Positions 11,826 through 38,008 of a stretch of DNA of 64,000 nt are shown in pieces. Under the pieces are notes generated by a model. The model was not told the DNA's origin, made no database searches, and saw only the letters and a list, made by a program, of their open reading frames with translations. Location of the stretch: contig NZ_CP109137.1 of NCBI RefSeq assembly GCF_035918095.1, positions 7,008,001 to 7,072,000 of the forward strand, read 5' to 3'. The first letter of the stretch is position 1; every line of letters starts with the position of its first letter. This stretch comes from Streptomyces sp. NBC_01750. Its GTDB lineage: Bacteria > Actinomycetota > Actinomycetes > Streptomycetales > Streptomycetaceae. The position numbers and the translations under genes were made by a program.

Positions 11826-12419
11826 TCATTGGGCGGCGCGCCGCGCCGAGAAGGTGACGGCGTAACCGCCCAGTCTGCGACGGACCTCGGGGGCGTGTAA
11901 GGGCAGTTCGCCCATGACGCGGCTCAGGCCGTCCAGGGAGGCCAGGCGTACCTGCGCTCCCTCCGCACGATGAAAGGAGCGGGCCGGGCCTGTGTCGAGG
12001 AGGTCGTAGCCGATGAGGAGGCCGCCGGGGCGCAGTACACGCGCGGCCTCGGCCAGTGCGCTCTCCCAGGCCACGACGTGGTGAAGCATCAGGAAGGACA
12101 CCACGGCGTCGAAGGTGCCGTCGGCGAAGGGAAGCTCGGTGGCATCCCCCGTCCGCGCGGATGCGCGATCGCCGAAGGGCGCCAGTCGGCGCGCGCTCGC
12201 GGAAACCATGGCCGGGTCCGGGTCCACGGCCGTCAGCGTGATGCCGGGGTGCGTGGTGAGGAGCTGCGCGGTCATGGTGCCGCCGCCGGAACCGATTTCC
12301 AGCACTCGCCCCTCGAGGGTGGCTCCGGCCAGGGCCCAGGGCAGGACAACGCGCCCGGCGAACACACCCCAGGGTGCGCTTCGGCAGAACACTCGTTCCA
12401 GCGTCGGCATCACCGGCAT
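11826..12419 (-). CDS. Class I SAM-dependent methyltransferase
   Basis: Methyltransferase of 197 aa. The SAM glycine loop VLEIGSGGGTMTAQLL, the acidic residue in TAVDPDPAM and the LPFADGTFDAVVSF post-motif are all present, as in the UbiE/Methyltransf_11 group. It is the last gene of an eight-gene minus-strand operon that begins at 19875, 21 bases after the hydroxylase-like gene. Substrate unknown; it may tailor the second cluster's product. Confidence 0.82.
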   Translation of the reverse strand: MPVMPTLERVFCRSAPWGVFAGRVVLPWALAGATLEGRVLEIGSGGGTMTAQLLTTHPGITLTAVDPDPAMVSASARRLAPFGDRASARTGDATELPFADGTFDAVVSFLMLHHVVAWESALAEAARVLRPGGLLIGYDLLDTGPARSFHRAEGAQVRLASLDGLSRVMGELPLHAPEVRRRLGGYAVTFSARRAAQ

Positions 12420-12440
12420 GTCATCTCCTTCGACGGTTGC

Positions 12441-13076
12441 TCACTGCGGGGTGCGGGCGACGGACGTACCGAAGACGCGGTCCCAGTAGGGGGCACTGAT
12501 GCCGAAGCCGCGGCGGTCGTCGAGGAAGTGATGGCGCATGTGGTACGTGCGCAGGGTGCGCAGGATCCTGCTCTTCGGCCTGCCTCGGTGGAGGTAGCAG
12601 TGGAGCAGGTCGTACGCCAGGTACCCGGCCACGTATCCGGCACCGAACACCGGCGGCAGGCCGAGCACTCCGGAGGAGAGCCAGAAGGTCAGCGCGATCA
12701 TGGGAATGCTCAGGACGGGGCTGAGGATCGAGCGGCGCGCGTCCTGGGGATAGTCGTGGTGCACTCCATGCAGGATGTAGTGAATCCGGGCGCCGATGCC
12801 GCGTTCGGGCTCGAAGTGCAGCAGGAGGCGGTGGCCCCAGTACTCCGACAGCGTCCAGGCCAGATAGCCGGCGAATGCCCAGCCGGCCAGCGCGGGCGGT
12901 CCTGACCGGCCGAGGGAGAGCAGCACACCGGCTACGGTCACCGGCACGTACAGGATCGTGCTCGTCATCGGGCTTATGTGCACCAGGTGGTCCAGCAGCG
13001 GCCGGTCGACAACGGCGGGCGCGGTGCCGCGGTGCAGGGCGCCCTTGGTGGTGCGTGGGGGTGTACCGGCGGTCAT
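12441..13076 (-). CDS. Fatty-acid-hydroxylase/sterol-desaturase family membrane protein
   Basis: Di-iron membrane oxygenase of 211 aa. It has several hydrophobic segments and the histidine clusters HRLLLH, HGVHHD, HCYLHRG and HMRHHF expected for the fatty acid 2-hydroxylase/sterol desaturase family. The ATG overlaps the stop of the upstream SDR gene (ATGA), so it is translationally coupled. In this cluster it could hydroxylate or desaturate a lipid-like acyl chain (inference). The last His cluster matches the family's C-terminal HxxHH box. Confidence 0.85.
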   Translation of the reverse strand: MTAGTPPRTTKGALHRGTAPAVVDRPLLDHLVHISPMTSTILYVPVTVAGVLLSLGRSGPPALAGWAFAGYLAWTLSEYWGHRLLLHFEPERGIGARIHYILHGVHHDYPQDARRSILSPVLSIPMIALTFWLSSGVLGLPPVFGAGYVAGYLAYDLLHCYLHRGRPKSRILRTLRTYHMRHHFLDDRRGFGISAPYWDRVFGTSVARTPQ

Positions 13077-13915
13077 CGGTCGGTTCCCTGGGCAGCGGAC
13101 ACGTTCAGCCGCGCCTCGTAGCCGGTGCGGGCCTGGAAGTCGGTGGTGCGCAACAGTTGGTCGGCCTTGAGCAGCCGGCCCACGGCGTCACGCCAGGGCT
13201 GGGGTAGCAGGAACAACGAGCGGGTGACCGGGTTGGTCCAGGCCGGTACGAAGACGTTGTAGCGGGGGCGCCGGGCGGTGCGAAGGACCGCGTCGGCGAT
13301 GTTCCGCGGGGTCAGGAGAGGGACGAAGCGGCCCTTGCCGACGCCCGAGGTGAGCTCGGTACGGGCGGGGATCGGCAGCACGATGGACAGGTCGACCCCA
13401 CTGCCGCGGAGTTCGGCACGTACGGCTTCGGACAGACCGACGACACCGTGCTTCGCCGCGGAGTACGTGGCACAGCCGGGCAGACCGACCATACCGACGG
13501 CGGAGGCCATGTTGATGATGTGGCCCCGGCCGCGGGCCCGCATGGGGCCGATGGCCGCCTTCATGCCGTTGATGGTGCCGAGGAGGTTGACTCCCACCTG
13601 GTGTGCGGTGTTGTCGTCGGTCTCGTCCTCGAAGCTGCCGACGATCATTTCCCCGGCGTTGTTGACGAAGATGTCGATCTCGCCGCACTCGGCTTCCACC
13701 CGGTCGCAGAACTGCTGGGTGCTCGCGGGGTCGGTGACGTCCAGCGGGTAGGCGAGTGCGCCGATCTCGGCGGCGACGCACGCGGCGTGGTCGAGGTCAC
13801 GGGCGCCGATGACGACCTTGGCACCCTCGCGAATGAACGCTTCGGCGGTGGCGCGTCCGATACCGCGGCTGCCGCCGGTGATGGCCACAACCTTGTTCTT
13901 GATCGCTTGGGGCAT
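13073..13915 (-). CDS. Short-chain dehydrogenase/reductase
   Basis: Classical SDR of 280 aa. The NAD(P) motif is TGGSRGIGRA, followed by NNAGEM and the catalytic pair in TYSAAKHG. The C-terminal extension with RRPRYNVFVPAWTNP is typical of actinobacterial SDRs of unknown substrate. GAGGAGG stands 5 bases before the ATG. It lies between the cyclase-fold gene and the hydroxylase-like gene in one operon. A dihydro-hydroxyanthranilate dehydrogenase role would fit the pathway but nothing in the sequence proves it. Confidence 0.85.
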   Translation of the reverse strand: MPQAIKNKVVAITGGSRGIGRATAEAFIREGAKVVIGARDLDHAACVAAEIGALAYPLDVTDPASTQQFCDRVEAECGEIDIFVNNAGEMIVGSFEDETDDNTAHQVGVNLLGTINGMKAAIGPMRARGRGHIINMASAVGMVGLPGCATYSAAKHGVVGLSEAVRAELRGSGVDLSIVLPIPARTELTSGVGKGRFVPLLTPRNIADAVLRTARRPRYNVFVPAWTNPVTRSLFLLPQPWRDAVGRLLKADQLLRTTDFQARTGYEARLNVSAAQGTDR

Positions 13916-13924
13916 GAGTCCTCC

Positions 13925-14377
13925 TCATGACGTGATGGATGGAGCGTTGTGCCCGCCGAGCAGGCCGCGGAGGATTGAGGTGATGGATTCGGTCAGGGCC
14001 CGGGTGGCGATCGGGTCGATGATCGCGGCGAGACTGGGAATCCCCAGGTCGAAGGCGGCGGCGAAGCGTACGGTGACGGACTCGTCGTCCTGGCGGACAC
14101 ACCAGCTGCCCTCGAAACGGTCGAAGTCCCCGTCCGACTGGGCGAAGTCGATGGTCAGCGCCGCGGCGTCGATCCGGTCCCGTTCGGACCAGCACAGCAC
14201 ACCGTTACGGAAGTTCACCGACCAGTCCGAGTGAACGGTGTCCGCGTCCACACCGGTGACGACCACCTGCCGCACCGCGTCGGTGTAGCGGGGGTAGGAG
14301 GCGAAGTCCCGCAGCCGTTCGAAAACGGCCGCTGCGGAGGTACCGGTCACGAGGGCATCGACAGTGACCTCTGGCAT
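13925..14377 (-). CDS. SRPBCC-fold polyketide cyclase/dehydrase-like protein
   Basis: Protein of 150 aa with the START/Bet v1 pattern of the polyketide cyclase group: VDALVTGTSAAAVFERLRD, YPRYTDAVRQV and a late FDLGIPSLAAIIDP helix. It may cyclise or bind the acyl product of this cluster. GGAAGGGG precedes the start. It sits 6 bases after the aminotransferase stop in the same operon. Generic lipid-binding functions are also common in this fold. Confidence 0.75.
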   Translation of the reverse strand: MPEVTVDALVTGTSAAAVFERLRDFASYPRYTDAVRQVVVTGVDADTVHSDWSVNFRNGVLCWSERDRIDAAALTIDFAQSDGDFDRFEGSWCVRQDDESVTVRFAAAFDLGIPSLAAIIDPIATRALTESITSILRGLLGGHNAPSITS

Positions 14378-14383
14378 GTCGGC

Positions 14384-15652
14384 TCATCCCCTTCCGGGAA
14401 GTGACGAAGCGGAGCGGAGCAGGGCCGCGGCAGCCGTGGTGAGGGCCGCGCCGATCCGCTCCAGGTCGGCGTCGCGGAGCACGGCCGGGGGCGTCAGCCG
14501 GACCACGCGCTGAGCATTGAGGGAGTGATTGGTCAGCAGCCCGGCGTCCAGCAGGTGCAACACCAGCTCGCCGGCCGTCTGCGCGTCGCACATCTCAATG
14601 CCGATCAGCAGGCCGCGGCCGCGGATGTCTGCCACGATGTCCCCCCGCAGCGGCGCCAGGGCGGCTTCGACGCGGGCCAGGATGTCATGGCCGAGGACCC
14701 TGGCGCGCTCGACGAGACGTTCGCCGGCGATGGCTCGTACCGCCGCGGCGGCGGCAGCCATCGCCACGGGCGACGCGGCGAAGGTGGAGGTGTGCAGAAA
14801 CGGGTCCCGGTCGAACGGCGCGTAGGCCGCGGCGGTGGACACCGCCGCGGCGACCGGAATGACGCCGCCACTGAGGCCCTTGCCGACCAGCAGGACATCC
14901 GGGCGGATGTCCTCGGGGTCGGCGCCCCACCATGTGCCCAGTCGGCCCAGACCTGTCTGGATCTCGTCCAGTACGAAGAAGGCGCCGTGCTCGGCACAGA
15001 GCCGCTGGACCTGTGCCAGGTAGCCCGGCGGCGGGATGACGACGCCGCCTTCGCCCTGCACGGGTTCGAGAACGAGGCAGGCCGGACCGCCGTGGCCGAG
15101 GGCCTCCGCCAGCTTGCCGAGATCACCGAACGGCACGTGCTCGGCCGGCAGCAGGGGCCGGAACGGCTCCTGGTACAGCGGCTGGGAGGTGAGGGCCAGC
15201 GCTCCTGTGGTCTTTCCGTGGTATCCGCCGACGGCCGAGATCAGCCGGGTCTTCCCCTGTGCCCTGGCCAGTTTGATCGCGGTCTCGACCGCCTCGGCCC
15301 CGGAGTTGACGAAGTGCACATGGTCCAGCCCGGGCGGGGTGACCCCGGCCAGCTCCGAGGCGGCGGTGGCGGCCACCGGCTCCAGCAGCAGCCGGGTGGC
15401 CATCGGGTGGCGGCGTACCTGCGCGGTAACCGCCTCGACCACCTGCGGATGGCAGTGCCCGAGCAGGAAGACTCCGTATCCGCCGCAGTCCAGATACTCC
15501 TTGCCGTCGGCGTCCCACACATACGCGCCTCGGGAGGTGACTTCCATCGCCGCACCCGTCATGGACGCCAACCGGGCCCGGCCCCGGCTGAGATGGCGCC
15601 GGTACACGTCCAGCACCTCGACGGCCGTGGCGGGCGTCGTCGGGCTGCTCAC
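14384..15652 (-). CDS. Class III PLP-dependent aminotransferase
   Basis: Aminotransferase of 422 aa of the ornithine/acetylornithine type. PLP-binding features are NSGAEAVETAIKLAR, VLDEIQTGLGR and the Schiff-base lysine Lys258 in LLVGKGLSGG. It would move an amino group onto an aldehyde or ketone. The GTG start overlaps the stop of the upstream reductase gene, so the reductase and aminotransferase may act in sequence, first making an aldehyde and then aminating it (inference). Confidence 0.88.
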   Translation of the reverse strand: MSSPTTPATAVEVLDVYRRHLSRGRARLASMTGAAMEVTSRGAYVWDADGKEYLDCGGYGVFLLGHCHPQVVEAVTAQVRRHPMATRLLLEPVAATAASELAGVTPPGLDHVHFVNSGAEAVETAIKLARAQGKTRLISAVGGYHGKTTGALALTSQPLYQEPFRPLLPAEHVPFGDLGKLAEALGHGGPACLVLEPVQGEGGVVIPPPGYLAQVQRLCAEHGAFFVLDEIQTGLGRLGTWWGADPEDIRPDVLLVGKGLSGGVIPVAAAVSTAAAYAPFDRDPFLHTSTFAASPVAMAAAAAAVRAIAGERLVERARVLGHDILARVEAALAPLRGDIVADIRGRGLLIGIEMCDAQTAGELVLHLLDAGLLTNHSLNAQRVVRLTPPAVLRDADLERIGAALTTAAAALLRSASSLPGRG

Positions 15653-16710
15653 GCCGTGACCAGTGCTGGAGCCGGGCGGTTCATGCCCTTCGTGCGTACG
15701 AGTTGCGACAGCGCGGCGTGCAGCGCGGATTCCGCCCGGTCCGCCCCCATCGCCGCCGGCAGGCCGGGCTTCCCCAGATCGGTGGGGAACGGCTGGTGGG
15801 CGGTGAACAGCGCGGTCATTGCGAGCAGATCATCGAGGCGACGACGGGTAGCGGGAGGCAGGTCCGCCATGAACACCGGCCGGATCAGACGGTCCACCAG
15901 GTCCGGGGAGACCATGCGCGGCAGTGTCAGGTCCAGGCCGGCTTGTGCGGCGAATTCGGCGGCCAGCGCCAGGAGACGGTCGGCGCGCAGAGCCTGATCG
16001 CCTGCGGTCACCCACACCTCCCCCTCGTGCGCGCCGTCGCGGACCAGGGCGGCGACCGTGGCGGCCACCACGTCCTGCGGCACGAAGTCGATCAGGGAAC
16101 CGGGCGACAGCGGCACCAGGGGCAGCCGCCCGCGCAGCAGGCTCGCCAGCATGCCGTGCAGACCCTGGAATGCCGAGATCTCTCCGGTGCGGGAGTCTCC
16201 GGTGATCACCGACGGGCGGATGATCACCGCCGGTACGCCCGAAGTGCGTACGATGTCCTCGCCCGCGCGTTTGGAGTCCAGATAGTTCTCGGGACGGGCG
16301 GTGCGCTCCCCGGTGTCCTGCCCCGGCCCGGAACCGGAACCGGTGATGCCGGTCCTGGCCACGAAGGCCGAGGAGACGTGGTACAGCAACGCATTGGCGT
16401 CCGCGACGAGTTGGACGATCCGCAGGGTGCCGGCCTCGTTGAGGGCGTGGGTCGCCGCCGGCCCGTCGGTGAAGCCGGTGACCGCGGCGCAGTGCACCAC
16501 GGCGTCCACCCGTGCGCAGAGGTCCGCGTACGCGGTTGCGTCGAGGCCGAGCCGGGGAGCGGTGAGGTCTCCGGTGAGCTGTTCGTCGGCGCCGGGTACC
16601 GGAGTGTGGTGGACCAGCGCAATCACCCGCCGGCCGGACAGTTCCGGGAGCAGCGCCGTACCGAGCACTCCGGAGGCTCCGGTCAGCAGGACGGTCGGGG
16701 CAGCCGGCAC
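15649..16710 (-). CDS. NAD(P)-dependent epimerase / thioester-reductase-like protein
   Basis: Extended SDR of 353 aa. It begins with the Rossmann motif LLTGASGVLGTALL and has YLDSKRAGEDIV, a YxxxK-type site, plus a VIIRPSVITGDSRTG segment as in NAD_binding_4 proteins that reduce acyl thioesters. It may release or reduce an acyl-ACP/CoA intermediate to an aldehyde. GAGGTG lies 8 bases before the GTG start. It is preceded by a 12-bp tandem repeat and followed, with overlap, by the aminotransferase. Sugar epimerase activity is less likely in this context. Confidence 0.75.
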   Translation of the reverse strand: MPAAPTVLLTGASGVLGTALLPELSGRRVIALVHHTPVPGADEQLTGDLTAPRLGLDATAYADLCARVDAVVHCAAVTGFTDGPAATHALNEAGTLRIVQLVADANALLYHVSSAFVARTGITGSGSGPGQDTGERTARPENYLDSKRAGEDIVRTSGVPAVIIRPSVITGDSRTGEISAFQGLHGMLASLLRGRLPLVPLSPGSLIDFVPQDVVAATVAALVRDGAHEGEVWVTAGDQALRADRLLALAAEFAAQAGLDLTLPRMVSPDLVDRLIRPVFMADLPPATRRRLDDLLAMTALFTAHQPFPTDLGKPGLPAAMGADRAESALHAALSQLVRTKGMNRPAPALVTA

Positions 16711-16742: not shown

Positions 16743-16790
16743 CACAGTCGGGGACACAGTCAGGGATGCGGTCAGGGAAACCGTCAGGGA
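16743..16790. repeat. Four tandem copies of a 12-bp repeat
   Basis: Four head-to-tail units share the core GTCRGGGA (16743-16754, 16755-16766, 16767-16778, 16779-16790). The last unit contains the stop codon of the acyl-CoA-dehydrogenase-like gene, and the array fills the gap to the reductase gene. It looks like replication slippage. Confidence 0.8.
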
Positions 16791-17914
16791 ATGAGCAGGG
16801 GCCGGCCCGCGAAGTAGTCCGTCAGCGGTGCGGCCGTACGGGACTTCGACGGCGGGTGGAAGGCCAGCGCGCGGCAGGCCGACTGCAGGTACGCGAGCTC
16901 TCCGGACGCGATGAAGGCCATTCCCCCGAGCGCCTCCATGCACAGGGCCAGGGTCCGGCTGATCGCGTCCTGCGCGGCGTAACGGCAGATCAGCGACTGG
17001 GCGAGGGCTTCTTCTCCGGGCGGGCGCCGACCGATCGCGGACGCGAGACCCTCGACCGAGAGCATGGCCGCCTCGACCGCGACGATGGCTTCGCCGCGCA
17101 CGGTGGGGTCCACCCGGGTGTCCGCCAGGGTTCGCTCCACCATCGCCGAGGCGGCCCCCAGATAGCTTGCGGTCATCAGCAGTTCGAACCAGACGAAGCC
17201 GACGGTCTGCAGATGGTCCGCCCGGCCCTCGTCGGTGACACCGGTGCGTACCAACAGCTCGGCGGGGACGGCCACATCGTCGAGGACGACTTCCTCGCTC
17301 TCCGCCGCGGCCAGGACCGGAGTGCGCCAGAACGGGCGCACGCTCACTCCGGGGGCGTCGGCAGGCACCAGGGCGATCGCCAGCTCCCACGAACCGTCCG
17401 GGCCCGGCAGCATGAAGGACGCGGTGAGCAGTTTCATCGACCTGGCGAGGCTGCACGGCTTCTTCGAGCCGCTCAACCGGACCTGGTCCCCGTCCATCCG
17501 AGCGGTCAGTGCCGGGCGGAGGATGCCCTGACCGGTACGCCCTTCGGCGAAGCCGGAGGCGAGCAGCAGATTCTCCTCGGCGATGGCGGCGAGCAGCAGC
17601 CACTCCATTCCGTCGCCGGCTGACGCCGTCTCGGCCAGCGTCGCGGTGGAGAAGTGATGCATCGTGGTGGCCACGGCGAGCGCGGGCGAGCGGGAACCCA
17701 GCGCGCGTTGTACACGTACCGCGGACAACAGGTCGGCCCCCGCTCCTCCGTGCACGGCGGGGACGAGCAGCCCCGGCCCGCCGGCCAGGGTGAAGGCCTT
17801 GAGCGCCGTTCCTTCGGTGGTCTCCAGATCCAGCAGCGGCACCGCTGCCAGCTGCTTGTCCAGTCCCGGCAGGAGACTCTCCAGGCTCTCGCGCTCACGC
17901 CGCAGAAAACGCAT
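16784..17914 (-). CDS. Acyl-CoA dehydrogenase family protein
   Basis: Flavin acyl-CoA dehydrogenase-like protein of 376 aa: N-terminal helical part (PAVHGGAGADLLSAVRVQRAL), a central beta domain (about residues 140-220) and a C-terminal helical bundle ending FHPPSKSRTAAPLTDYFAG. It could introduce a double bond or oxidise an acyl chain in the pathway. GGTGGGAGGG precedes the ATG. I did not identify a convincing catalytic glutamate, so an N-oxygenase-like or non-dehydrogenating role remains possible. Confidence 0.78.
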   Translation of the reverse strand: MRFLRRERESLESLLPGLDKQLAAVPLLDLETTEGTALKAFTLAGGPGLLVPAVHGGAGADLLSAVRVQRALGSRSPALAVATTMHHFSTATLAETASAGDGMEWLLLAAIAEENLLLASGFAEGRTGQGILRPALTARMDGDQVRLSGSKKPCSLARSMKLLTASFMLPGPDGSWELAIALVPADAPGVSVRPFWRTPVLAAAESEEVVLDDVAVPAELLVRTGVTDEGRADHLQTVGFVWFELLMTASYLGAASAMVERTLADTRVDPTVRGEAIVAVEAAMLSVEGLASAIGRRPPGEEALAQSLICRYAAQDAISRTLALCMEALGGMAFIASGELAYLQSACRALAFHPPSKSRTAAPLTDYFAGRPLLIP

Positions 17915-17937: not shown

Positions 17938-19875
17938 TCATTCACCGGCCCTCACAGGGGTTGTCCCGGAGGTCGTCAGCAGCGCCTCGAGCTCGTCGCC
18001 GAGGATCGACACGCCTTCCTGCGTGAGCAGGGACTCCGGATGGAACTGCAGAGAACGCAAGGAAGGACCGCGAAGGGCGTGCACCTCACCGTTCTCCGGG
18101 TCCCGACTGACCTCGACGCCTTTGAACCGGTCGTCGGCCGACACAGCGGCGAAGGTGTTGTAGAAGCCCACAGGGGTACGGCGGCCGAACAGGTCGATCT
18201 CGCGTTGCACCCCTTGGTTGGGCGGATCCTTGCGGATCAGTTCGAGTCCCAGCACCCCGCACACCACCTGATGTCCCAGGCATACCGCCAGGAAGGGCCG
18301 TCGTTCGTCCATGAGCCGGCGGACAGTGCGGCGCAGCGCGGCGATCTTGGGGGCGTCGAAGTCCCGTGGATCGCCGGGGCCGGGGCCCACGATGACAAGG
18401 TCGAAGTCGTCAGGCTCGTAGGGTTCGTCGAACCTGCGCGTGGTGACCTCAGGTCCGAGCGCGCGCAGTTGATGCCTGAGCATCTCGGTGAAGGAGTCCT
18501 CGCCGTCCACCACGAGCACACGGTGGCCGGCCAGCGCTTCGCGGTGGTACCCGGCGTCACCCGGGGGCTCCAGCCAGAACCGGGAGAGTGTGACGTTGCG
18601 CCGGGCCAACGCCTCGCGGACCTGCGGGTGTCCGGCGATGCGGGGTGAGCGGCGAGAGGTGCCCGGGGGATGCGGTTGCGTGCCGTGCACGGCATCCAGC
18701 AGGGCAGCGGTCTTCGCGCGGGTCTCGGCGACCTCGGAGTCCGGATCGGAGTGGCGGACCAGCGTCGCTCCGACACCGATCCGCAGCCGGCCCTCCGCTC
18801 CGATGTCCGCCGTACGGATGAGCAGTGCCGAGTCGAGCTGCCGGGCGCCGGAATCGTCGCGGCCGATCAGCGCGAGCACTCCGCTGTAGTAGCCGCGCCC
18901 CTCGGGCTCGTAACGCTTGATGACACGGCAGGCGTTCTCCAGCGGGCTGCCGGTGACCGTGGGGACGAACATGGTCTCCCGCAGGATTTCCCTGACGTCC
19001 CGTGAACTACGCCCGGTCAGCACGTATTCGGTGTGCGCGAGCCGGGTCATTTCCTTGAGGTACGGGCCCGAGGTCCGCACGCCGGGTTCGCAGATCCGCG
19101 CCATCATCTTGAGTTCCTCGTCGACCACCATGTACAGCTCGTCGGTCTCTTTGGGGTCGGCCAGGAAACGCAGGACGTCGGGCACCGTGGGCCCGGCCGG
19201 CGGGTGGCGGTATGTCCCGCTGATCGGGTTCATCCTCACCGTGCCGGCTGTCAGGCTGACGTGCCGCTCCGGGGTGGCGCCCACCAGGGTGCGCGAGCCC
19301 GTGTGAATGAGGAACGTCCAGTAGGCGCCCACCTCGCGGGCGAGGAGGCGGCGGAACACCGTGAGTGCGGCGTCGGTGACAGAACCCTCCACCGTGGCTA
19401 CGAACGACCGTCTGATGACGAAGTTGGCGCCCTCGCCCCTGCCTATCTCTTCACTGAGGATCTTGCGGACGATGGTCCCATAGGCCCCGTCGTCGATGTC
19501 GAACTCCCCGCCGTTCAGGTCGATCGGCCGGTCCGGGATCCTCTCCAGCAGTGCGGCGGAACCCATGGTGGCCTGTTCCCCGACGCTCATGGCGAGCAGC
19601 GGCGTCCGGTCGTCCTGGTACTCGAATCCACGCTCGGCGATCTGGCGGTACGGAATGAGTACGACCATTTCGTGCCGGGCCTGACCGGCCGGCCCCTGGC
19701 CCTCCTTCTGCTCCTGCGTCACCGGAAGCTCCGCGAGAGTCGGCACCTCGAGAACGTCGCCGACGAGGATCTCGACCTGATCGCGCCCGGCCGAAGAGGG
19801 GCGGTGCAGCAGCGCGAAGGGGGGTGCGTCGGGGGTGAGCAGGCTGTCGAGACGCGCAGTGTCCATGTCGCTCAC
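17938..19875 (-). CDS. Fused chorismate aminase: anthranilate synthase or ADIC synthase (TrpEG/PhzE type)
   Basis: 645-aa fusion of a chorismate-utilising domain (about residues 1-410, with MNPISGTYRHPP, DEELKMMARIC and GSPLENACRVIKRYEPEGRG) and a class I glutamine amidotransferase (about 455-645, nucleophile Cys in AVCLGHQVVCG, His-Glu in FHPESLL). It converts chorismate and glutamine to anthranilate or 2-amino-2-deoxyisochorismate; motifs do not decide between the two. The GTG at 19875 is chosen for its GGGAG site; an ATG lies 9 bases further in and the open frame extends to 19899. It leads the minus operon and is divergent from a DAHP synthase gene, showing dedicated aromatic precursor supply. 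Confidence 0.88.
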   Translation of the reverse strand: MSDMDTARLDSLLTPDAPPFALLHRPSSAGRDQVEILVGDVLEVPTLAELPVTQEQKEGQGPAGQARHEMVVLIPYRQIAERGFEYQDDRTPLLAMSVGEQATMGSAALLERIPDRPIDLNGGEFDIDDGAYGTIVRKILSEEIGRGEGANFVIRRSFVATVEGSVTDAALTVFRRLLAREVGAYWTFLIHTGSRTLVGATPERHVSLTAGTVRMNPISGTYRHPPAGPTVPDVLRFLADPKETDELYMVVDEELKMMARICEPGVRTSGPYLKEMTRLAHTEYVLTGRSSRDVREILRETMFVPTVTGSPLENACRVIKRYEPEGRGYYSGVLALIGRDDSGARQLDSALLIRTADIGAEGRLRIGVGATLVRHSDPDSEVAETRAKTAALLDAVHGTQPHPPGTSRRSPRIAGHPQVREALARRNVTLSRFWLEPPGDAGYHREALAGHRVLVVDGEDSFTEMLRHQLRALGPEVTTRRFDEPYEPDDFDLVIVGPGPGDPRDFDAPKIAALRRTVRRLMDERRPFLAVCLGHQVVCGVLGLELIRKDPPNQGVQREIDLFGRRTPVGFYNTFAAVSADDRFKGVEVSRDPENGEVHALRGPSLRSLQFHPESLLTQEGVSILGDELEALLTTSGTTPVRAGE

Positions 19876-30550: not shown

Positions 30551-30829
30551 ATGTCCGAGAACACCACGTCCACCGCCGGCCTCGACCTCGACGAGCTGCG
30601 CACGATCGTCGCCGACGCCCTCGAACTCCCCACGGAAGAAGTCACGGACGAGGCGCACTTCGTGAACGACCTCCAGGTGGACTCGCTGATGGCTCTCGAG
30701 ATCGTCGTGAATCTGGAGAAGCGATACGGCATCAAGGTCGCCGAGTCCGACTTCAAGGAGCTCACCAACGTGCTCCAGGTCCACGGACTCGTCGAATCCA
30801 AGCTCAAGGAACAGGCCCACGCCGCCTGA
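30551..30829 (+). CDS. Acyl carrier protein (second of the cluster)
   Basis: ACP of 92 aa with the phosphopantetheine serine Ser45 in LQVDSLMALEIVVNLE. The ATG at 30551 is preceded by GAAGGGAAC; the frame is open further upstream (to 30305) but that part overlaps the reductase gene and the duplicated repeat and is not ACP-like. Having two different ACPs suits a pathway with separate starter and elongation carriers. Confidence 0.92.
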   Translation: MSENTTSTAGLDLDELRTIVADALELPTEEVTDEAHFVNDLQVDSLMALEIVVNLEKRYGIKVAESDFKELTNVLQVHGLVESKLKEQAHAA

Positions 30830-31693: not shown

Positions 31694-31724
31694 GCCCCGC
31701 GCCGGCCCGCTTCGAGGAGATCCC

Positions 31725-32633
31725 GTGAGCAAGCAGCTGATGGCGGTGTGCGCCGCGCCCCTGGTCGCGACCCGTGCGGCGTACTCCGCTTTCCATCCAC
31801 CCCGTACCGCGCAACGACGGAGACCGGACCAATTCGGTCTCCAGACCGAGGAGTTGACCATCGCCGCCCCCGGCCGCACCCGCCTCAGCGCCTGGCTGTG
31901 CCGGGGGGACCCGGGCCGGGTGGTGCTTCTCGGTCACGGCCTCGGGCTGGAGAAGTCCCGCAGTCTGCCGTACGCCCGCTTCCTTCACCGGGGCGGATAC
32001 ACGGTGCTGCTCTTCGACTTCCGCAATCACGGTGACAGCTCCCAGGACCGCGGTTTCGCGGGATTCGACCGGCGCTTCGCCGAGGACGCCGTCGCGGCGG
32101 CCACCCACCTCCGGGCCATGCCGGAATTCGCCGAAGCCCGCCTGGCCCTCTACGGATTCTCGCTGTCCTCGTTCGCGATGCTGCGCGCGCTCGCCGCGTT
32201 GCACGGCGCGGTCCACGCCGTGGTGTGCGACAGCGGCCCCGCCTGCGATCCGCCCGCGATCTCCCCGAACCTGCTGCGCTCAGGGCTGCTGCCCGTCCCC
32301 GCCGTCATGCGGGAAGCCCCTGCCCGGCCCGTGGTGGAGTACGTGTTCCGCATGCTCAATCACATCACGATGGGCGCCTCGGGCGACTGGCCTCCGACGC
32401 CGGACCGGCCGGCCTACGCCACCACCCCGATGCTGTTCATCGCCGGCGGCGCGGACTCCGTCGTACCTGCCGACGAGATCCTGCGCCTGGCGCGCCCGTA
32501 CCCGCGCGCCGAGACCCTGGTCGTTCCCGGTGCGAAACACCTGCGCGCGATGTGGACCGACAAGGACCAGTACACGTCGACCGTCCTCGAATTCCTCGAG
32601 CGTTGCCTCGACCCGACGAAAGCGGTGCGCTGA
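31725..32633 (+). CDS. Alpha/beta hydrolase
   Basis: Hydrolase-fold protein of 302 aa: oxyanion region LLGHGLGLEKS, nucleophile serine in YGFSLSSFAML, acid in IAGGADSVVPADE and histidine in VPGAKHLRAMW. It is likely to hydrolyse an ester, amide or thioester, for instance releasing the chain. The GTG start at 31725 is supported by GAGGAGA 5 bases upstream; the longer open frame reaches back into the ketoreductase gene. It overlaps the next gene by TGATG. Confidence 0.82.
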   Translation: MSKQLMAVCAAPLVATRAAYSAFHPPRTAQRRRPDQFGLQTEELTIAAPGRTRLSAWLCRGDPGRVVLLGHGLGLEKSRSLPYARFLHRGGYTVLLFDFRNHGDSSQDRGFAGFDRRFAEDAVAAATHLRAMPEFAEARLALYGFSLSSFAMLRALAALHGAVHAVVCDSGPACDPPAISPNLLRSGLLPVPAVMREAPARPVVEYVFRMLNHITMGASGDWPPTPDRPAYATTPMLFIAGGADSVVPADEILRLARPYPRAETLVVPGAKHLRAMWTDKDQYTSTVLEFLERCLDPTKAVR

Positions 32634-33694
32634 TGCGACTGGGCCTGAACCTGCGCTACTTGGGAAACCTGGGCGCGGGGCCCGACCCCAAAGCCTCGGC
32701 GCTCTACGTCCAGGAGGCCGAGCAACTCGGCTTCTCCGTGGCGTGGACGGCCGAGGTGTTCAGCTCCGACGCGGTGTCCCTGCTCGGCTGGCTCGCCGCG
32801 CACACCAGCAGGATCGACCTCGGCACCGCGGTGATGCAGATCCCGGCCCGCACCCCCACCATGACGGCGATGACCGCAGCGACCCTCGACATCATTTCCG
32901 GCGGTCGTTTCCGGCTCGGTCTCGGCGTCTCCGGGCCACAGGTCTCGGAAGGGTGGCACGGCGCCCGGTTCGACCGGCCGCTGGCACGCACCCGCGAGTA
33001 CATCGACGTGGTGCGCCTCGCGCTGCGCCGGGAGGACGTCGCGTACGACGGCGAGTACCACCGACTGCCTCTGCCGGACGGGCCCGGCAAGGCGCTGCGC
33101 CTCGGGACCCGCCCGCTCCGCAAGGACGTCCCGGTGTATCTGGCCGCTGTGGGGCCACGCAATACGACACTCGCCGGGGAGATCGCGGACGGCTGGCTCT
33201 CGGTGTTCTTCCAGCCGGAGTCCGGTGCCCTGCACCTGGCGAATCTGCGCGCCGGACGGGAGAAGCGCGGCAAGGACCTCACCGGGTTCGACGTCGTCGC
33301 GACGGTGCCCGTCGTGGTGGGCGACGACCTCGCGGAGTGCGCCGACCGGGTCCGGATGTACACCACCCACTACCTCGGCGGCATGGGGTCACGCGGGCAG
33401 AACTTCTACAACAGCCTTGCGGTCCGCCTCGGTTACGCGGATGCCGCACGCCGTGTACAGGAGCTGTACCTGGCCGGCAAACCACGCGAGGCGGCGGCGG
33501 CCGTACCCCAGGAGTTCCTGGAACGCACCGCTCTGCTGGGCCCGGTCGACCGGATCGCCGACGGCCTGCGCGCCTACGCCGAAGCGGGCGTGACGACCCT
33601 GTCCGCCATGATCTTCCCCGAGAACACGCCCGACGGGGTGCGCAGTCTGCGGGCGATCACCGAGGCATTCGAGAAGTCGGGGGCCGGCGGGTGA
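32633..33694 (+). CDS. LLM-class F420/flavin-dependent oxidoreductase
   Basis: Luciferase-like TIM-barrel protein of 353 aa. It has the LGLNLRY opening, AVMQIPARTPTMTAM, and GGRFRLGLGVSGPQVSEGWHG, typical of F420-dependent oxidoreductases of actinobacteria. It would carry out a hydride-transfer redox step on the product or an intermediate. The start overlaps the hydrolase stop. Confidence 0.88.
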   Translation: MRLGLNLRYLGNLGAGPDPKASALYVQEAEQLGFSVAWTAEVFSSDAVSLLGWLAAHTSRIDLGTAVMQIPARTPTMTAMTAATLDIISGGRFRLGLGVSGPQVSEGWHGARFDRPLARTREYIDVVRLALRREDVAYDGEYHRLPLPDGPGKALRLGTRPLRKDVPVYLAAVGPRNTTLAGEIADGWLSVFFQPESGALHLANLRAGREKRGKDLTGFDVVATVPVVVGDDLAECADRVRMYTTHYLGGMGSRGQNFYNSLAVRLGYADAARRVQELYLAGKPREAAAAVPQEFLERTALLGPVDRIADGLRAYAEAGVTTLSAMIFPENTPDGVRSLRAITEAFEKSGAGG

Positions 33695-33740
33695 TACCCG
33701 GCCTTCCGCACCACGCACCGTCCGGGAAAGGACTCCCCTC

Positions 33741-34922
33741 GTGTACGACGTCATAGTGGTGGGCGCACGCTGCGCCGGGGCCCCGACGGCCATGCTCTTC
33801 GCCCGGGCCGGCTACCGCGTCCTGATGGTGGACAAGGCCCGCTACCCCCGCGACACCATGTCCACCCTCTACATCCATCAGCCCGGTGTGGCCCTGCTCC
33901 AGCGGTGGGGCATCCTCGACGCGGTCACGGCCACCGGCTGTCCGCCGATGGAAAAGGCCCGCCACCAGGTGGCGGACGTCCGGCTGGAGGGGTGCTCGTG
34001 GCCCGTCGACGGAATCAGCGCCGCCTACGCGCCCCGCCGCTATCTGCTGGACCGGATCCTCGCCGACGCGGCTGTCGCGGCCGGCGCGGAGTTCCGGGAG
34101 CAGTGCACGGTGGACGACCTCCTCTTCGAGGGGGACCGGGTGGTCGGGGTCGGCATCCGGACCGCGGCCGGACGGTCCGAGGAACGCGCCCGGCTGGTGG
34201 TCGGTGCGGACGGCATGCGGTCCAAGGTGGCGGCGCTGGCCGGTGCGCCCGTCGTCTGTGAAGACCCCCTGATGACGTGTGTCTACTACAGCTTCTGGTC
34301 GGGCCTGCCGACCGGCTTCGAGGTGTACCAGTCGACCGGACGGTGGGCGGGTTTCGTGCCCACCAACGACGGGCTGACGCTCGTGGGAACGTACTTCCCG
34401 CAGTCCGAGTTCGACACCGTACGGGCGGATGTCCGGCGCGCGTTCCTCGGCAATGTGGCCGCCGCCGCGCCCGGTCTGGACGAACGGCTGGCAGCCGCCA
34501 CCCAGGAGGACCGGCTCTACGGAACCGGTGACCAGCGGAATTTCTTCCGGCAGGCATCGGGCCCCGGCTGGGCGCTCGTGGGCGACGCGGGCCACCACAA
34601 GGACTCGATCACGGGCAAGGGCATCACCGACGCCTTCCGGCAGGCGACGGCCCTGACGGGCTGTGTTGCGGACGGCCTGCAGGACCGGCCCCGGCTGGAC
34701 GCCGCGCTGCGCCGATACGCCATCGACCGCGACGAGTTGGTCATGGACGGCTACCGGGACACCCTGGCGGTGGCCGAGCTCCGGCCGAATCGCCGTCTGG
34801 CGCTGATGCGCGCCATCGCGGACGATCCGGTGATGATCGAGCGTTTCTTCTCCACCGTCTCCGGAGCGTGCCCGTCCAGTGAACTGATCACGCCGGAGTG
34901 GCGAGAACGGGCGCGGGCCTGA
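33741..34922 (+). CDS. FAD-dependent oxidoreductase/monooxygenase
   Basis: Flavoprotein of 393 aa with the FAD motif VVGARCAGAPTAMLFAR at the N-terminus, VVGADGMRSKV in the middle and WALVGDAGHHKDSITGKGI near residues 280-300, resembling geranylgeranyl-reductase-like and p-hydroxybenzoate-hydroxylase-like enzymes. Hydroxylation of the aromatic unit is plausible. It starts at GTG 33741 after GGGAAAGGA and is the last gene of the rightward operon, ending just before a strong hairpin. Confidence 0.82.
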   Translation: MYDVIVVGARCAGAPTAMLFARAGYRVLMVDKARYPRDTMSTLYIHQPGVALLQRWGILDAVTATGCPPMEKARHQVADVRLEGCSWPVDGISAAYAPRRYLLDRILADAAVAAGAEFREQCTVDDLLFEGDRVVGVGIRTAAGRSEERARLVVGADGMRSKVAALAGAPVVCEDPLMTCVYYSFWSGLPTGFEVYQSTGRWAGFVPTNDGLTLVGTYFPQSEFDTVRADVRRAFLGNVAAAAPGLDERLAAATQEDRLYGTGDQRNFFRQASGPGWALVGDAGHHKDSITGKGITDAFRQATALTGCVADGLQDRPRLDAALRRYAIDRDELVMDGYRDTLAVAELRPNRRLALMRAIADDPVMIERFFSTVSGACPSSELITPEWRERARA

Positions 34923-34945
34923 CCGGCTGCTTCACCACGGGACCT

Positions 34946-34975
34946 CCACCGGGCCGCTGTCGCGGCCCGGTGGAT
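34946..34975. terminator. Bidirectional hairpin terminator
   Basis: Thirteen-base perfect arms at 34946-34958 and 34963-34975 enclose a 4-base loop. It lies between the convergent FAD enzyme and thioesterase genes. Confidence 0.88.
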
Positions 34976-34980
34976 CCGTG

Positions 34981-35406
34981 TCAGAGGCCGAACACGCCAG
35001 GGTCCGAGGCCACGGCGCGGAAGTACTCGCGCGGGTCGGCGACCAGCTTGCGTGCCTTCAGGTCGAGCAGACCGCCGACGTTGAAGACCTCGGCCACGAG
35101 GGTGTTGTCGTCCGTACGGTGGAAGGTCTGCTCCACCCGGAACGACTTGCCCTCCCCGAAGATGAAGGCGCAGGTGATGTCGACGTCATCACCCGCGACC
35201 ACCTCGCGGTGGTACCTGATCGTGCTCTCCAGATTGATCGGGCCGACGCCCTTCGCCAGCAGTGCGTTCTGCTCGATGCCGGCGGCCCGCAGCAACTCCC
35301 AGCGCGCGTGCTCCGCATGCTGCAGATACACATTTCCATTGAGGTGGCCCTGGGCATCCGTCTCGTAACCGCGGACGGTAACTCGCACAGTAAACAGGTC
35401 TGCCAT
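34981..35406 (-). CDS. Hotdog-fold acyl-CoA/ACP thioesterase
   Basis: 4HBT-family thioesterase of 141 aa with the signature YETDAQGHLNGNVYLQHAEH. It may hydrolyse the finished or aberrant acyl thioester; a hotdog dehydratase role is conceivable because no other dehydratase is visible. The ATG at 35406 has GAAGGG 6 bases upstream; the open frame reaches 35448, overlapping the regulator gene. It lies 25 bases after the LuxR regulator on the same strand and is probably co-transcribed with it. Confidence 0.85.
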   Translation of the reverse strand: MADLFTVRVTVRGYETDAQGHLNGNVYLQHAEHARWELLRAAGIEQNALLAKGVGPINLESTIRYHREVVAGDDVDITCAFIFGEGKSFRVEQTFHRTDDNTLVAEVFNVGGLLDLKARKLVADPREYFRAVASDPGVFGL

Positions 35407-35431
35407 GAAAATCCCTTCAGAACGGCGCCCT

Positions 35432-38008
35432 TCAAGCGCCTTGTGCAAGGTAACGGGCCACTTCCACCCGCGAATTGATGTCGAGCTTCCGGAATATCAC
35501 TCGCAGGTGATAGTTCACGGTGTGCGGGGACAGGCTTACCCGCCGGGCGATCTGGCGATTCGTCAGACCGTCGCCGACCAGACGGGCGATGGCCCGCTCG
35601 GCCTCGGTGAGGGCATCCCACCCGGCAGGCGTGTCCACGGGCGGGCGGGCCGGAGCCGGTGCCGGAATCGGAGCTGCCGGGAGACTGTTGTCCCTCAGCA
35701 GGTCACGCACCCGGTCCGCGTCCGCCTTCGCCCCGATCTGCTCGAACCTGTGCAGGGCTGCCTGCAGACAGCCCTGAGCCAGCGCCCCGTTCCTGCCCTC
35801 GTCCGCGGAGAACAGCACACCGAGATCCTCTTCCGCCAACGCTCCGGAGCAGGGGCTGAGATGCTCCCTGGAGGCTCGGCGCAACGCGGCGGCGTCCCTC
35901 TCCAGGAGTCCCCGGGCATGCGCCGCCGAGACACACACCGAGTGGTGCTCGGTATTGGCGGCCGCGAGCGCCTCCACCGAGGCGACCACGGCCGCCGCGA
36001 GCGGCGCGTCGTCGGCGGCGAGAGCCAGTCTGACGAACCATGGCGCGGCGCCCGGTTCCTCGACGAACAGTTGCCGCTGCGTCAGCAGATCCGCGTACTG
36101 GGTGGTGAGCAGCTCGGCCGTCCGCCGCGGGCCGAGCTGGGCCGTGGCCACCAGACACTCCCCCCAGGAGAAATGGATCGAGGGGAACACCGTGCTGTCC
36201 GCGCCCACCACAGCCCGGGTGCGCCACACATAGTCCGCGGCCGATGACAGGTCCCCGCGGCGCAGGGCAACCAGGATGAGGACCGCCTGCCCGACGGGGA
36301 TGACCCAGCTGCTGCCCGCCTCCACGGCGGCGGACAGCCCGGCCTGGGCGGCGTCCTGCGCCTCCTGGAGCCGGCTCGACTGGAGGAGCAACCGGGAACG
36401 GGTGATCAGGATCGCCGCCGCGTGGTCCGTGAGCCCCGCCCGCTCGGCTTCCTCCCGGGCAGTCCGTATCAGCAGTTCGGCTTCGTCGAACTGGCCGAGG
36501 TCGGACAGTTTGGAGGCCAGTGCAAGTCGTACGTACGGACGCCACATCGTTGGTGTGGACCGGCCGATGCGACTCACCGCCTGCCGCCCCCACCGCAGCC
36601 CCTCGGTCAGGTTGCCCGCGGACCACTCCAGATTGGAGATCACTGTCGTGGCCGTCACGGCGTCCGCGTCGCCGTCCGCCTCCGTGCGCGAGTCGAGGAT
36701 CGACCGCGCATTACCCCACACGCGGCGCTCGTCGTCGGCAAACAGAGAGACGATATTGCGGGCTGCCGCGTCGGCCTTCCCCGGTGCGACGGCGTGCGCG
36801 TCGGCCAGGATGGCGGTGAGTTCGGTCCGCAGTTCCTCGGTCGAGCCCAGTGTCAGCGGCTCCGTACGCGCACTCCTGGCCAGCAGCAGGGCGGGTACCA
36901 GGCGGCCGGTCAGACGCTGTGAGACAGAGCCCTGCGCGACAGCCGGCACGGAAGCCGGGACGGGTGGCGTCTTTACGATGGTCACGCCCTGCGACAGCAG
37001 AAGTTCGGGTGTGAGCGGCACGTTCGCGCGCCGCTGATTCCGTAGCGTGTCGATGTCATTGTTCAGAGCGAGCCGCACTGCCGGAGGCAATGCCTCCGCT
37101 ATCGCCCGCCGGATCAGTTCGTGCTGGAGCACCGCTTGCTCACCGGGGCAGATGAGCAACCCCGCGGCCATGGCCTCGTTCAGTGCGGGGAGTAAGGACG
37201 CCGTTGTCTCGCGCTGCATCGCGGCCAGTTCACCGATCATGAAGGATCCGCCTATTGCGGCGGCGACTTGGATCAGCTGATGAGATTTCTCCGAGAGCTC
37301 ATTCAGCCAGCGTGAAGCGACTTCTCGGATTCGCTGAGGGATCCGAACGTCAGTGAGGCGGGCCTGTTCACCGAGGAGTGCAAGGTTTCCCTCTTCCCGT
37401 AATCCTCTGACGAGCTCGACAATGAGCAGCGGGTTCCCGCCCGCACTCCGGACCATGGAAATGAGGTCCGCATCAGGCTCCGCGCCCAATAACTCGGCCG
37501 CCAATTCCATGGATTCTTCGTCGGACAACCGGCCCAACTCGATCCTGGCCACTCGGGCACTCTCGCCCAACAACCGCCTCACGGTTCGGCTCTCGTGCTG
37601 TGCTCGTAGCCCGAGCAGCCAAGTCACCTGAGCATGGCTCCCGTGAGGCTGCGCAGAGAGGACGGAATTTGTAACCTTGGAGTTCGCGTGGTGGAAATTG
37701 TCCACGAGAACAAGCCGCGGTCTCGAAGCCCCGAGGGACCCGGACTCAAGTCCGGCCAGGAACGACTCGATTCGGCGGTTCCCCGATGATCCATCGTGCG
37801 GGGAGATCGAGAACGACGAGGTGGCGAACCCGAGTTCCGCTGCGAGCCGTTCCGTCTCCCGCATCAAGCGGGTCTTGCCCGTCCCGGCGGGCCCCTCAAG
37901 GATCAGGGCGTTACTGCAGCCACTTGAACCTACGGCGAGAAATTCTGCTATTCGTGCCCACTCTCGCCTGCGGCCTAATGGCCGAAGACTGTCAATGTGC
38001 TCCGTCAT
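35432..38008 (-). CDS. Large ATP-binding LuxR-family regulator (LAL/MalT type), TTA-containing
   Basis: Likely pathway-specific activator, 858 aa. Walker A is LEGPAGTGKTRLM (about residues 37-49), Walker B-like LVLVDNFHH follows, then a long helical repeat region, and the C-terminal LuxR helix-turn-helix (LTNRQIARRVSLSPHTVNYH, about 812-831). Three TTA leucine codons lie at 37193-37195, 37400-37402 and 37490-37492 (codons 272, 203 and 173), so translation should depend on the bldA tRNA. Its 5' half is AT-richer than its neighbours. The ATG at 38008 has CGAGG upstream; the open frame to 38137 is not conserved-looking. Confidence 0.9.
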   Translation of the reverse strand: MTEHIDSLRPLGRRREWARIAEFLAVGSSGCSNALILEGPAGTGKTRLMRETERLAAELGFATSSFSISPHDGSSGNRRIESFLAGLESGSLGASRPRLVLVDNFHHANSKVTNSVLSAQPHGSHAQVTWLLGLRAQHESRTVRRLLGESARVARIELGRLSDEESMELAAELLGAEPDADLISMVRSAGGNPLLIVELVRGLREEGNLALLGEQARLTDVRIPQRIREVASRWLNELSEKSHQLIQVAAAIGGSFMIGELAAMQRETTASLLPALNEAMAAGLLICPGEQAVLQHELIRRAIAEALPPAVRLALNNDIDTLRNQRRANVPLTPELLLSQGVTIVKTPPVPASVPAVAQGSVSQRLTGRLVPALLLARSARTEPLTLGSTEELRTELTAILADAHAVAPGKADAAARNIVSLFADDERRVWGNARSILDSRTEADGDADAVTATTVISNLEWSAGNLTEGLRWGRQAVSRIGRSTPTMWRPYVRLALASKLSDLGQFDEAELLIRTAREEAERAGLTDHAAAILITRSRLLLQSSRLQEAQDAAQAGLSAAVEAGSSWVIPVGQAVLILVALRRGDLSSAADYVWRTRAVVGADSTVFPSIHFSWGECLVATAQLGPRRTAELLTTQYADLLTQRQLFVEEPGAAPWFVRLALAADDAPLAAAVVASVEALAAANTEHHSVCVSAAHARGLLERDAAALRRASREHLSPCSGALAEEDLGVLFSADEGRNGALAQGCLQAALHRFEQIGAKADADRVRDLLRDNSLPAAPIPAPAPARPPVDTPAGWDALTEAERAIARLVGDGLTNRQIARRVSLSPHTVNYHLRVIFRKLDINSRVEVARYLAQGA

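Follow-up and report, generated by a model that had tools for sequence, protein, structure and literature searches.

Reducing type II polyketide synthases (PKSs) form a young family, and the best described counterparts of the locus reported here are the avenalumate (ava) and cma clusters, in which an aryl-acyl carrier protein (ACP) ligase, two ACPs, a ketosynthase (KS)/chain-length factor (CLF) pair and, in ava but not in cma, a FabG-type ketoreductase are linked to the lengthening of an aminobenzoate by reducing type II chemistry (PMC10777205). We compared these systems with a gene cluster of Streptomyces sp. NBC_01750 (genome G000, 9.0 Mb), which lies in a window of 64,000 nt, the whole stretch of DNA that was analysed; all coordinates below are positions in this window. 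The cluster carries an avenalumate-type ACP-ligase-KS-CLF-ACP(-KR) cassette, two more KS/CLF pairs and a FabL-like enoyl reductase (ER) in a conserved 18-gene core, and next to this core a second operon of different distribution, hereafter the left operon. We propose, with a probability of roughly 0.6, that its product is a polyketide primed by an aryl unit, partly reduced and ending in an amine, to which the conserved core would contribute the chain and the acquired operon the end group.

The 25 genes at 11.8–38.1 kb (region 11,826–38,137; Table 1) are arranged as the two divergent operons recognised in the initial annotation of this DNA, to which a convergent pair on the TE-LUXR side has to be added. 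Domain scans recovered every element that had been named: on the minus strand a class-I methyltransferase, FA_hydroxylase, a short-chain dehydrogenase/reductase (SDR), Polyketide_cyc, a class-III aminotransferase, an NAD_binding_4 thioester reductase, an ACAD-like flavoprotein and PhzE, and on the plus strand a class-II 3-deoxy-D-arabino-heptulosonate 7-phosphate (DAHP) synthase, two ACPs, three KS/KS-beta pairs, a benzoate-CoA-ligase-like enzyme, an enoyl reductase, a ketoreductase, an LLM-class F420 enzyme and an FAD enzyme. Three further genes came to light, encoding an alpha/beta hydrolase (ABH, ~31.7–32.6 kb), a hotdog thioesterase (TE) and a large LuxR regulator (LUXR). In the left operon, six of the seven intergenic gaps do not exceed 23 bp; in the right one, adjacent genes overlap by 1–11 bases from ACP1 through ER.

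In an eight-way alignment, with a whiE-like pair as control, KS1, KS2 and KS3 were seen to retain the active-site cysteine and both histidines. The column of this cysteine is occupied by Q, G and R in CLF1, CLF2 and CLF3, respectively; the CLFs are shortened, and only an N-terminal ketoacyl-synthase domain was detected in them. The three complete KS alpha/beta pairs that had been claimed are thus present. As in ava, a single operon brings together an ACP, an aryl-ACP ligase, a Cys-His-His KS and a Cys-less CLF, together with a FabG-type ketoreductase (KR), a likeness drawn by description and not by sequence. The ER shows a Y-x6-K spacing, in contrast to the YxxxK of KR, and has FabL as its closest PDB relative. 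The earlier assignment to the aryl-primed, reducing type II PKSs is supported. The scoring of 7,994 candidates, drawn from 5.8 billion proteins, gave at least 24 relatives of CLF1 at E<=1e-20, a count that is a lower bound, given that the S. coacervatus genome carries such a gene yet no entry bears its name.

The ligase (LIG) was searched against 392 genomes of the genus, 101 of which gave a match at E<=1e-60. Beyond the window only G273 reached 71%, and near-full-length copies at 51–60% were detected in 21 further genomes; loci were fetched from G273 and from 18 of these 21 (G005, G023 and G377 being left out), and a single scan of genome contigs gave four loci, that of S. coacervatus (L061) among them. 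The 18 loci with a 51–60% ligase all retain the order ACP1-LIG-KS2-CLF2-ACP2 (18/18), followed in eight by a KR at 65–69%; KS1 and ER drew a single match each, at 34%, and CLF1, KS3, CLF3, ABH, LLM and FAD drew none in these loci. In the four loci where it was tested (L067, L070, L073 and L084), the best family of a neighbouring ANL enzyme was the avenalumate diazotase AvaA6, below its cut-off, which ties the LIG/KS2/CLF2 cassette to ava (PMC10777205).

The full core, in the order PHZE|DAHPS-ACP1-KS1-CLF1-LIG-KS2-CLF2-KS3-CLF3-ER-ACP2-KR-ABH-LLM-FAD|TE-LUXR, is syntenic in both fetched relatives with KS1/CLF1, namely S. coacervatus (L061, 64–88%) and G273 (L065/L066, 57–84%). Against these two relatives the ratio of nonsynonymous to synonymous substitution rates (dN/dS) of the 18 genes was 0.16–0.42 and 0.18–0.44; all of them are under purifying selection. 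Comparisons of SDR1 with the core relatives (0.78, 1.36) and of KR with L130 (1.09) were dropped as SDR cross-matches and not orthologs. With the gene order kept in all 18 loci and a core dN/dS of 0.16–0.44, the association of these genes goes beyond chance. The flanks of the S. coacervatus core look unrelated on either side, judged by eye, and neither relative has orthologs of the left operon in its core locus. The cluster is composed of two modules, the 18-gene core and the left operon (ACAD-TR-AT3-CYC-SDR1-FAH-MT): the content of the 26-kb cluster delineated initially is real, but conservation does not extend over it as a single unit, since both relatives are without the left operon at their core loci and without the thioester reductase gene TR in their whole genomes. 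As a whole it is intact and rare. In S. typhae we also noted a locus (L063, 152–19429) with LIG-KS2-CLF2-KS3-CLF3-LLM-ER-ACP2-KR and a TrpEG-like synthase, a candidate anthranilate-primed relative; it encodes a fused FAD/old-yellow-enzyme flavoprotein which we take to resemble 2-aminobenzoyl-CoA monooxygenase.

The aminase had been described as TrpEG/PhzE-type, of which the second half holds: it is PhzE-type, and neither PabAB nor an ordinary TrpEG. PHZE aligns end to end with the PhzE of known structure (3r74, 5.7e-192), and its motif is PISGT in place of the PIKGT that marks aminodeoxychorismate synthases. A tree of 11 sequences, calculated after removal of a TrpEG outgroup whose branch was very long, unites the three core PHZE in a single clade (100/100). 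This clade groups with four of five PhzD-linked PHZE at 87/92, short of the level that the tool stars, and the fifth PhzD-linked sequence falls outside; three chromosomal paralogs stand separately (100/100). Six columns differ between core and PhzD-linked PHZE, and no reading rests on them. A rule by which TrpE His398 would tell 2-amino-2-deoxyisochorismate (ADIC) synthases from anthranilate synthases, was abandoned, as by eye the presumed anthranilate synthase of L063 is without it too. By sequence, the aminase is a PhzE-type ADIC synthase, and homology predicts that the core lineage makes ADIC. The PhzE paralog encoded elsewhere on the chromosome (47–56%) adjoins a DAHP synthase gene in all three genomes examined for it (L135, G000:C1:2486156-2488084; L140; L141), and two of these three gave no PhzD match at all.

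A PhzD query that returned 69% in G145 and 52–79% in S. typhae as a control found no match in the genome of NBC_01750 or in G273, and a single one of 26% (2e-7) in S. coacervatus. With only this remote match in the core lineage, ADIC would have to be aromatised in another way. Of the aminobenzoyl head predicted earlier, the aryl priming is supported; that the starter is anthranilate or an aminobenzoate is conjectural, PhzD not being found in the genome. At three other loci, L073 (G145), L084 (G192) and L136 (S. typhae), the LIG/KS2/CLF2 cassette lies beside PhzE, PhzD and an SDR, the one in L073 passing the dhbA equivalog cut-off; L073 and L084 also hold the AvaA6-like diazotase, below the family cut-off. 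These loci likely supply 3-hydroxyanthranilate, and are apparently avenalumate-like pathways primed by it. The ligase motif reads NGLGATEALH(I/F) in the three core loci and NCFGATELMHV in the three PhzD-linked ones, with NCLGATEVMHV in L067, L070 and L072, where the 20 kb read holds no PHZE; as an indicator of the starter this difference is only suggestive.

TR found matches at E<=1e-30 in 49 of the 392 genomes, the source genome included, with five others at 61–64%. Eight of the other 48 loci were read, two of them cut by contig ends. ACAD directly adjoins TR in six of the eight and lies within 3.5 kb in two, AT3 is present in seven, CYC in six, and SDR1 and FAH in three; the left cassette is mobile. 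A KS matching KS1 (40%) occurs near one TR locus only, L133. In Streptomyces sp. NPDC057445 both TR (P0002, 86%) and CLF1 (P0122, 77%) were detected, in entries that both give 49,116 bp as the longest contig, which suggests that the fusion of core and left operon exists in a second species. We read the cassette as leading from an acyl thioester through an aldehyde and an amine to an N-hydroxylamine because of its gene set, the fold ranking of ACAD and the order of aldehyde-forming enzyme, transaminase and two-component N-hydroxylase proposed for azodyrecin (PMC9379638). The formation of an aldehyde and then an amine by TR and a class-III aminotransferase has a type I PKS precedent (PMC5300972), and streptoaminal clusters place KS/CLF sets alongside an aminotransferase (PMC12187902). 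The left operon may thus convert an acyl chain to an amine that is N-hydroxylated.

N-hydroxylation is the weakest step of this reading. An AlphaFold model of ACAD (mean predicted local distance difference test 85.5, from an alignment of nine sequences) ranked the amine nitrososynthase 3mxl first in Foldseek (2.5e-14), followed by TdsC, KijD3 and DszC, and DszC was also the best match of a profile search (1e-11). ACAD is a candidate amine N-hydroxylase, the modelled N-/S-monooxygenase fold being narrowly favoured. The TR-AT3 pair and its adjoining flavoprotein argue against a plain lipid or polyene acid and for an amine that is perhaps N-hydroxylated; the lipid-like or polyene chain predicted initially is borne out in part, with no dehydratase found among the ORFs scanned, an ER present and an end group that is probably an amine.

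Other carriers of the cassette were of interest in their own right. L128 (G157), L130 (G164) and L131 (G373) contain ACAD-TR-AT3-CYC-SDR1-FAH without a KS/CLF pair. A NO-synthase-like gene, named by eye, follows FAH in all three (NCBIfam assigns no family to the L128 copy), and a flavin reductase inside the L130 cassette was confirmed. Farther off, L128 has a FabH-like KS, an AurF-family gene and an ACP, the last named by eye, as were a FabH-like gene in L130 and an ACP in L131. The products of these loci are possibly fatty amines of the N-nitroso or diazeniumdiolate kind. In the genome of NBC_01750, the NO-synthase-like match sits in a region without any cassette gene. In L133 (G125) and L134 (G350), TR, AT3 and ACAD lie near a 151-aa protein with D51, H82, H110 and D114, the very positions reported for the iron ligands of VlmO (PMC11705231). 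Pfam and NCBIfam name no family for the L133 protein, and an R2-like-oxidase relative is found nearby, below its cut-off; both loci probably encode aliphatic azoxy pathways. Also adjoining L133 are a KS and an AmcE-family gene of the cispentacin type.

In the pathway that we infer, DAHPS would raise shikimate flux and PHZE produce ADIC, which some further enzyme would aromatise to an aminobenzoate for loading onto ACP1 by LIG. KS2/CLF2 with KR would carry out the first extension or extensions, as in avenalumate synthesis, and KS1/CLF1 and KS3/CLF3 would then lengthen the chain with KR, ER and ACP2, some units being left saturated by ER and dehydration being borrowed from fatty-acid synthesis. 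In the core-only relatives, S. coacervatus and G273, TE or ABH would release an acid; in NBC_01750, with both modules acting on one molecule, TR would release an aldehyde, which AT3 would convert to a primary amine for N-hydroxylation by ACAD. FAH, SDR1, CYC, MT, LLM and FAD would serve in decoration. A bolder version can be offered only tentatively, as a less likely possibility: that the product belongs to a new class and that an aminoaryl unit, derived from ADIC and aromatised not by PhzD but by a new cluster enzyme (ABH, LLM or FAD), primes a reducing type II PKS of three KS/CLF pairs, a free-standing reductase releases the chain, an N-hydroxyamine results, and two modules joined by recombination replace the acid release of the core-only relatives.

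Several observations weigh against the proposal of an aryl-primed polyketide amine. With PhzD and a DhbA-type SDR missing, the starter step is left unexplained, and the domain scans of the cluster ORFs revealed neither a dehydratase, a transporter nor a flavin reductase; the ava and cma gene table likewise lists no dehydratase (PMC10777205). TR has no match anywhere in the S. coacervatus or G273 genomes, and in seven of the eight TR loci the left cassette occurs without a KS/CLF pair, so that the modules may not share a product. FAH of NPDC057445 did not appear within the top 120 of 561 hits, so that the left operon there may be incomplete. As for ACAD, acyl-CoA dehydrogenases stand narrowly behind the monooxygenases in Foldseek (1.2e-13 against 2.5e-14), the best PDB match of a single-sequence search is the acyl-CoA dehydrogenase 6u1v (4e-7), and the best NCBIfam family is the RedW dehydrogenase, below cut-off.

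The distribution of the modules bears most directly on the possibility that two neighbouring pathways are involved, the core making an aryl-polyketide acid, as in S. coacervatus, and the left operon a separate fatty-amine-derived compound that shares only the PHZE promoter. A core that is complete and bounded without the left operon fits this, as do the cassettes of L128, L130 and L131, which stand by a flavin reductase (confirmed in L130) and a NO-synthase-like gene and have no KS/CLF pair. Neither of these two companions was seen in the cluster, however, and its left operon is headed by PHZE, 23 bp from ACAD; TR and CLF1, moreover, recur in NPDC057445, in entries whose longest contigs have the same length. 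We hold two pathways to be a possible, less favoured account. It is unlikely, in our view, that the product is an anthranilate-primed alkaloid, in which the 2-amino group attacks a short chain or a terminal aldehyde to give a quinoline, tetrahydroquinoline or cyclic imine. PhzE does place nitrogen ortho to the carboxylate, and the related S. typhae locus L063 combines most of the same PKS genes (LIG-KS2-CLF2-KS3-CLF3-ER) with a TrpEG-like synthase; the argimycin TR and aminotransferase are reported to lead to spontaneous cyclisation (PMC5300972). Against this, the three KS/CLF pairs and the ER point to a longer chain, and the starter on which such a ring would depend is itself conjectural.

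The remaining two accounts concern the core. Its ACP-LIG-KS-CLF-ACP(-KR) cassette is identical in make-up to that of avenalumate, and a short phenyl-alkenoic acid of the avenalumate or p-coumarate type, its aryl amine lost by diazotisation, might be expected. Yet no second ANL enzyme that could be an AvaA6 diazotase, no nitrous-acid genes and no domain of the 3,4-aminohydroxybenzoate (3,4-AHBA) synthase pair AvaH/AvaI were seen among the cluster ORFs scanned (for the synthase pair the rest of the genome was not searched), TR scores 26 bits against a cut-off of 400 for the model of the denitrifying reductase AvaA7, and the ligase motif is unlike that of the PhzD-linked ligases. The avenalumate pathway proper was rejected for want of a diazotase set among the cluster ORFs, and we consider a product of this type highly improbable: the start of the pathway works as an avenalumate-type reducing type II PKS, yet the diazotase and the AHBA synthase were not found among these ORFs. 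Three KS/CLF pairs are not unique, for cinnamoyl-lipid clusters hold two or three, together with LuxR regulators (PMC9381841), and the benzene ring might accordingly be built from the polyketide itself, LIG and PHZE serving something else. This is very unlikely, LIG being embedded between the KS pairs of an operon that is headed by DAHPS, with no isomerase/dehydratase among the cluster ORFs scanned.

Table 1. Genes of the cluster, with positions in the 64,000-nt window, strand and basis of assignment.
Feature	Assignment	Position	Strand	Basis
MT	SAM (S-adenosylmethionine) methyltransferase, left operon	11826..12419	-	PF08241 4e-24; single 42% fragment match in eight cassette loci read
FAH	di-iron fatty-acid-hydroxylase (FA 2-hydroxylase-like) membrane enzyme	12441..13076	-	PF04116 1.2e-19; several JGI relatives named dihydroceramide fatty acyl 2-hydroxylase
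SDR1	short-chain dehydrogenase/reductase (YxxxK)	13073..13915	-	PF00106 6e-47; NF005878 above cut-off
CYC	SRPBCC cyclase/aromatase-fold protein	13925..14377	-	PF03364 8e-16
AT3	class-III omega-aminotransferase	14384..15652	-	PF00202 1e-86; best PDB putrescine aminotransferase 4uox 1e-84
TR	stand-alone thioester reductase	15649..16710	-	PF07993 4e-33; TIGR01746 6e-28, below its cut-off
ACAD	acyl-CoA-dehydrogenase-fold flavoprotein, candidate amine N-hydroxylase	16784..17914	-	AlphaFold model and Foldseek; profile search (DszC); single-sequence searches point to dehydrogenase
PHZE	PhzE-type, predicted ADIC synthase; first gene of left operon	17938..19899	-	full-length to PhzE 3r74; tree
Promoter region	divergent intergenic region, 271 bp	19900..20170		gap between divergent operons
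DAHPS	class-II DAHP synthase	20171..21394	+	PF01474 1e-122; TIGR01358 below its cut-off
ACP1	acyl carrier protein (DSL serine motif)	21408..21665	+	PF00550 7e-11
KS1	ketosynthase, Cys-His-His intact	21665..22894	+	domain scan; alignment
CLF1	short KS-beta without catalytic Cys	22884..23813	+	domain scan; alignment
LIG	aryl-ACP ligase (benzoate-CoA-ligase-like)	23813..25351	+	PF00501 3e-70; TIGR02262 1.5e-97, below cut-off; best PDB benzoate-CoA ligase 2v7b 1e-75
KS2	ketosynthase, ava-like cassette	25348..26487	+	domain scan; alignment; 59-70% to KS in six cassette loci
CLF2	short KS-beta, ava-like cassette	26484..27458	+	domain scan; alignment
KS3	ketosynthase	27455..28684	+	domain scan; alignment; 62% in S. 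typhae L063
CLF3	short KS-beta	28681..29649	+	domain scan; alignment
ER	FabL-like enoyl-ACP reductase (Y-x6-K)	29649..30446	+	best PDB FabL 3oic 1.6e-25
ACP2	acyl carrier protein (start codon approximate)	30551..30829	+	PF00550 5e-15
KR	FabG-type ketoreductase (YxxxK)	30947..31693	+	PF13561 2e-63
ABH	alpha/beta hydrolase (longest frame; true start probably later)	31638..32633	+	PF12146 5e-13; 65-81% in both core relatives
LLM	F420-dependent oxidoreductase family (start approximate)	32636..33694	+	PF00296 3e-82; TIGR03559 386 vs cut-off 335
FAD	FAD-binding monooxygenase/halogenase-fold oxidoreductase	33741..34922	+	PF01494 7e-21; best PDB 3e1t 8e-18
TE	4HBT hotdog thioesterase	34981..35448	-	PF13279 2e-19; 76-87% in both core relatives
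LUXR	large ATPase-type LuxR regulator, end of core	35432..38137	-	PF00196 3e-14; last gene in common with S. coacervatus

To the right of the cluster, the genes named by Pfam (2-hydroxyacid dehydrogenase, CrcB, AmiS/UreI, formamidase and RsgA) look unrelated. Directly to its left lies a separate system, a whiE-like spore-pigment aromatic type II PKS (2266–9416) with KS, CLF, ACP, cyclases, SchA/CurD and an FAD hydroxylase.

Set against the known systems, the cluster differs from ava and cma, which have a diazotase, aspartate-nitrosuccinate (ANS) nitrite genes and a 3,4-AHBA synthase (PMC10777205), and adds to the features in common with them two KS/CLF pairs, an ER, PhzE and a reductive-amination operon. 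DAHPS and PhzE recall the PhzCDE supply of 3-hydroxyanthranilate, from which the cluster differs in that PhzD and a DhbA-like SDR are missing; PhzD and an SDR are present beside the cassette in L073, L084 and L136. The ring of the cinnamoyl lipids is formed from the polyketide chain, whereas the present cluster has a chorismate-derived starter and a ligase. The likeness to the gla, skyllamycin and youssoufene type II PKSs lies in the number of KS/CLF pairs and the LuxR regulators (PMC9381841). The streptoaminal/5-alkyl-tetrahydroquinoline (stm) cluster combines reducing KS/CLF sets with an aminotransferase, and is described as nine genes with two such sets, against three pairs here, in an account that makes no mention of aryl priming in the parts consulted (PMC12187902). 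Identity with stm was considered and is possible. Compared by description only, the same two elements are present in NBC_01750, but in different operons.

Azoxymycin is of p-aminobenzoate (PABA) and polyketide origin. Its azo cluster resembles ours in the use of aromatic amine precursors and needs the diiron N-oxygenase AzoC (PMC6783550). No PF11583 protein of the AzoC/AurF kind was found among the cluster ORFs scanned, and PhzE takes the place of PabAB, so an azoxymycin cluster was rejected. Argimycin and coelimycin offer a TR followed by a class-III aminotransferase and an ACAD-like dehydrogenase/hydroxylase, but there the PKS is of type I, TR is a domain, and argimycin has a flavin reductase gene (PMC5300972); our TR is a free protein, with no flavin reductase seen. 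The succession of aldehyde, transaminase and N-hydroxylase also links the cluster to the aliphatic azoxy compounds azodyrecin and valanimycin (PMC9379638). Relatives of TR, AT3 and ACAD lie beside the VlmO-like protein of L133/L134; with the L133 protein as query, no match was found in the genome of NBC_01750, in a search that had no independent positive control and did not extend to VlmB.

As the initial annotation had supposed, no cluster with this gene set was found described in the open-access literature, in which subscription journals are mostly missing and MIBiG was outside the scope. The cluster is probably a new member of the recently recognised family of reducing polyketide pathways. 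In it, a starter derived through PhzE is combined with three KS/CLF pairs, an ER and a reductive-amination operon that is portable. The cluster opens to study the use of ADIC in the absence of PhzD, the division of labour among three pairs, and whether end-group operons move between pathways as units. The core-only relatives provide a natural control, in which the same chain can be compared with and without the amine end.

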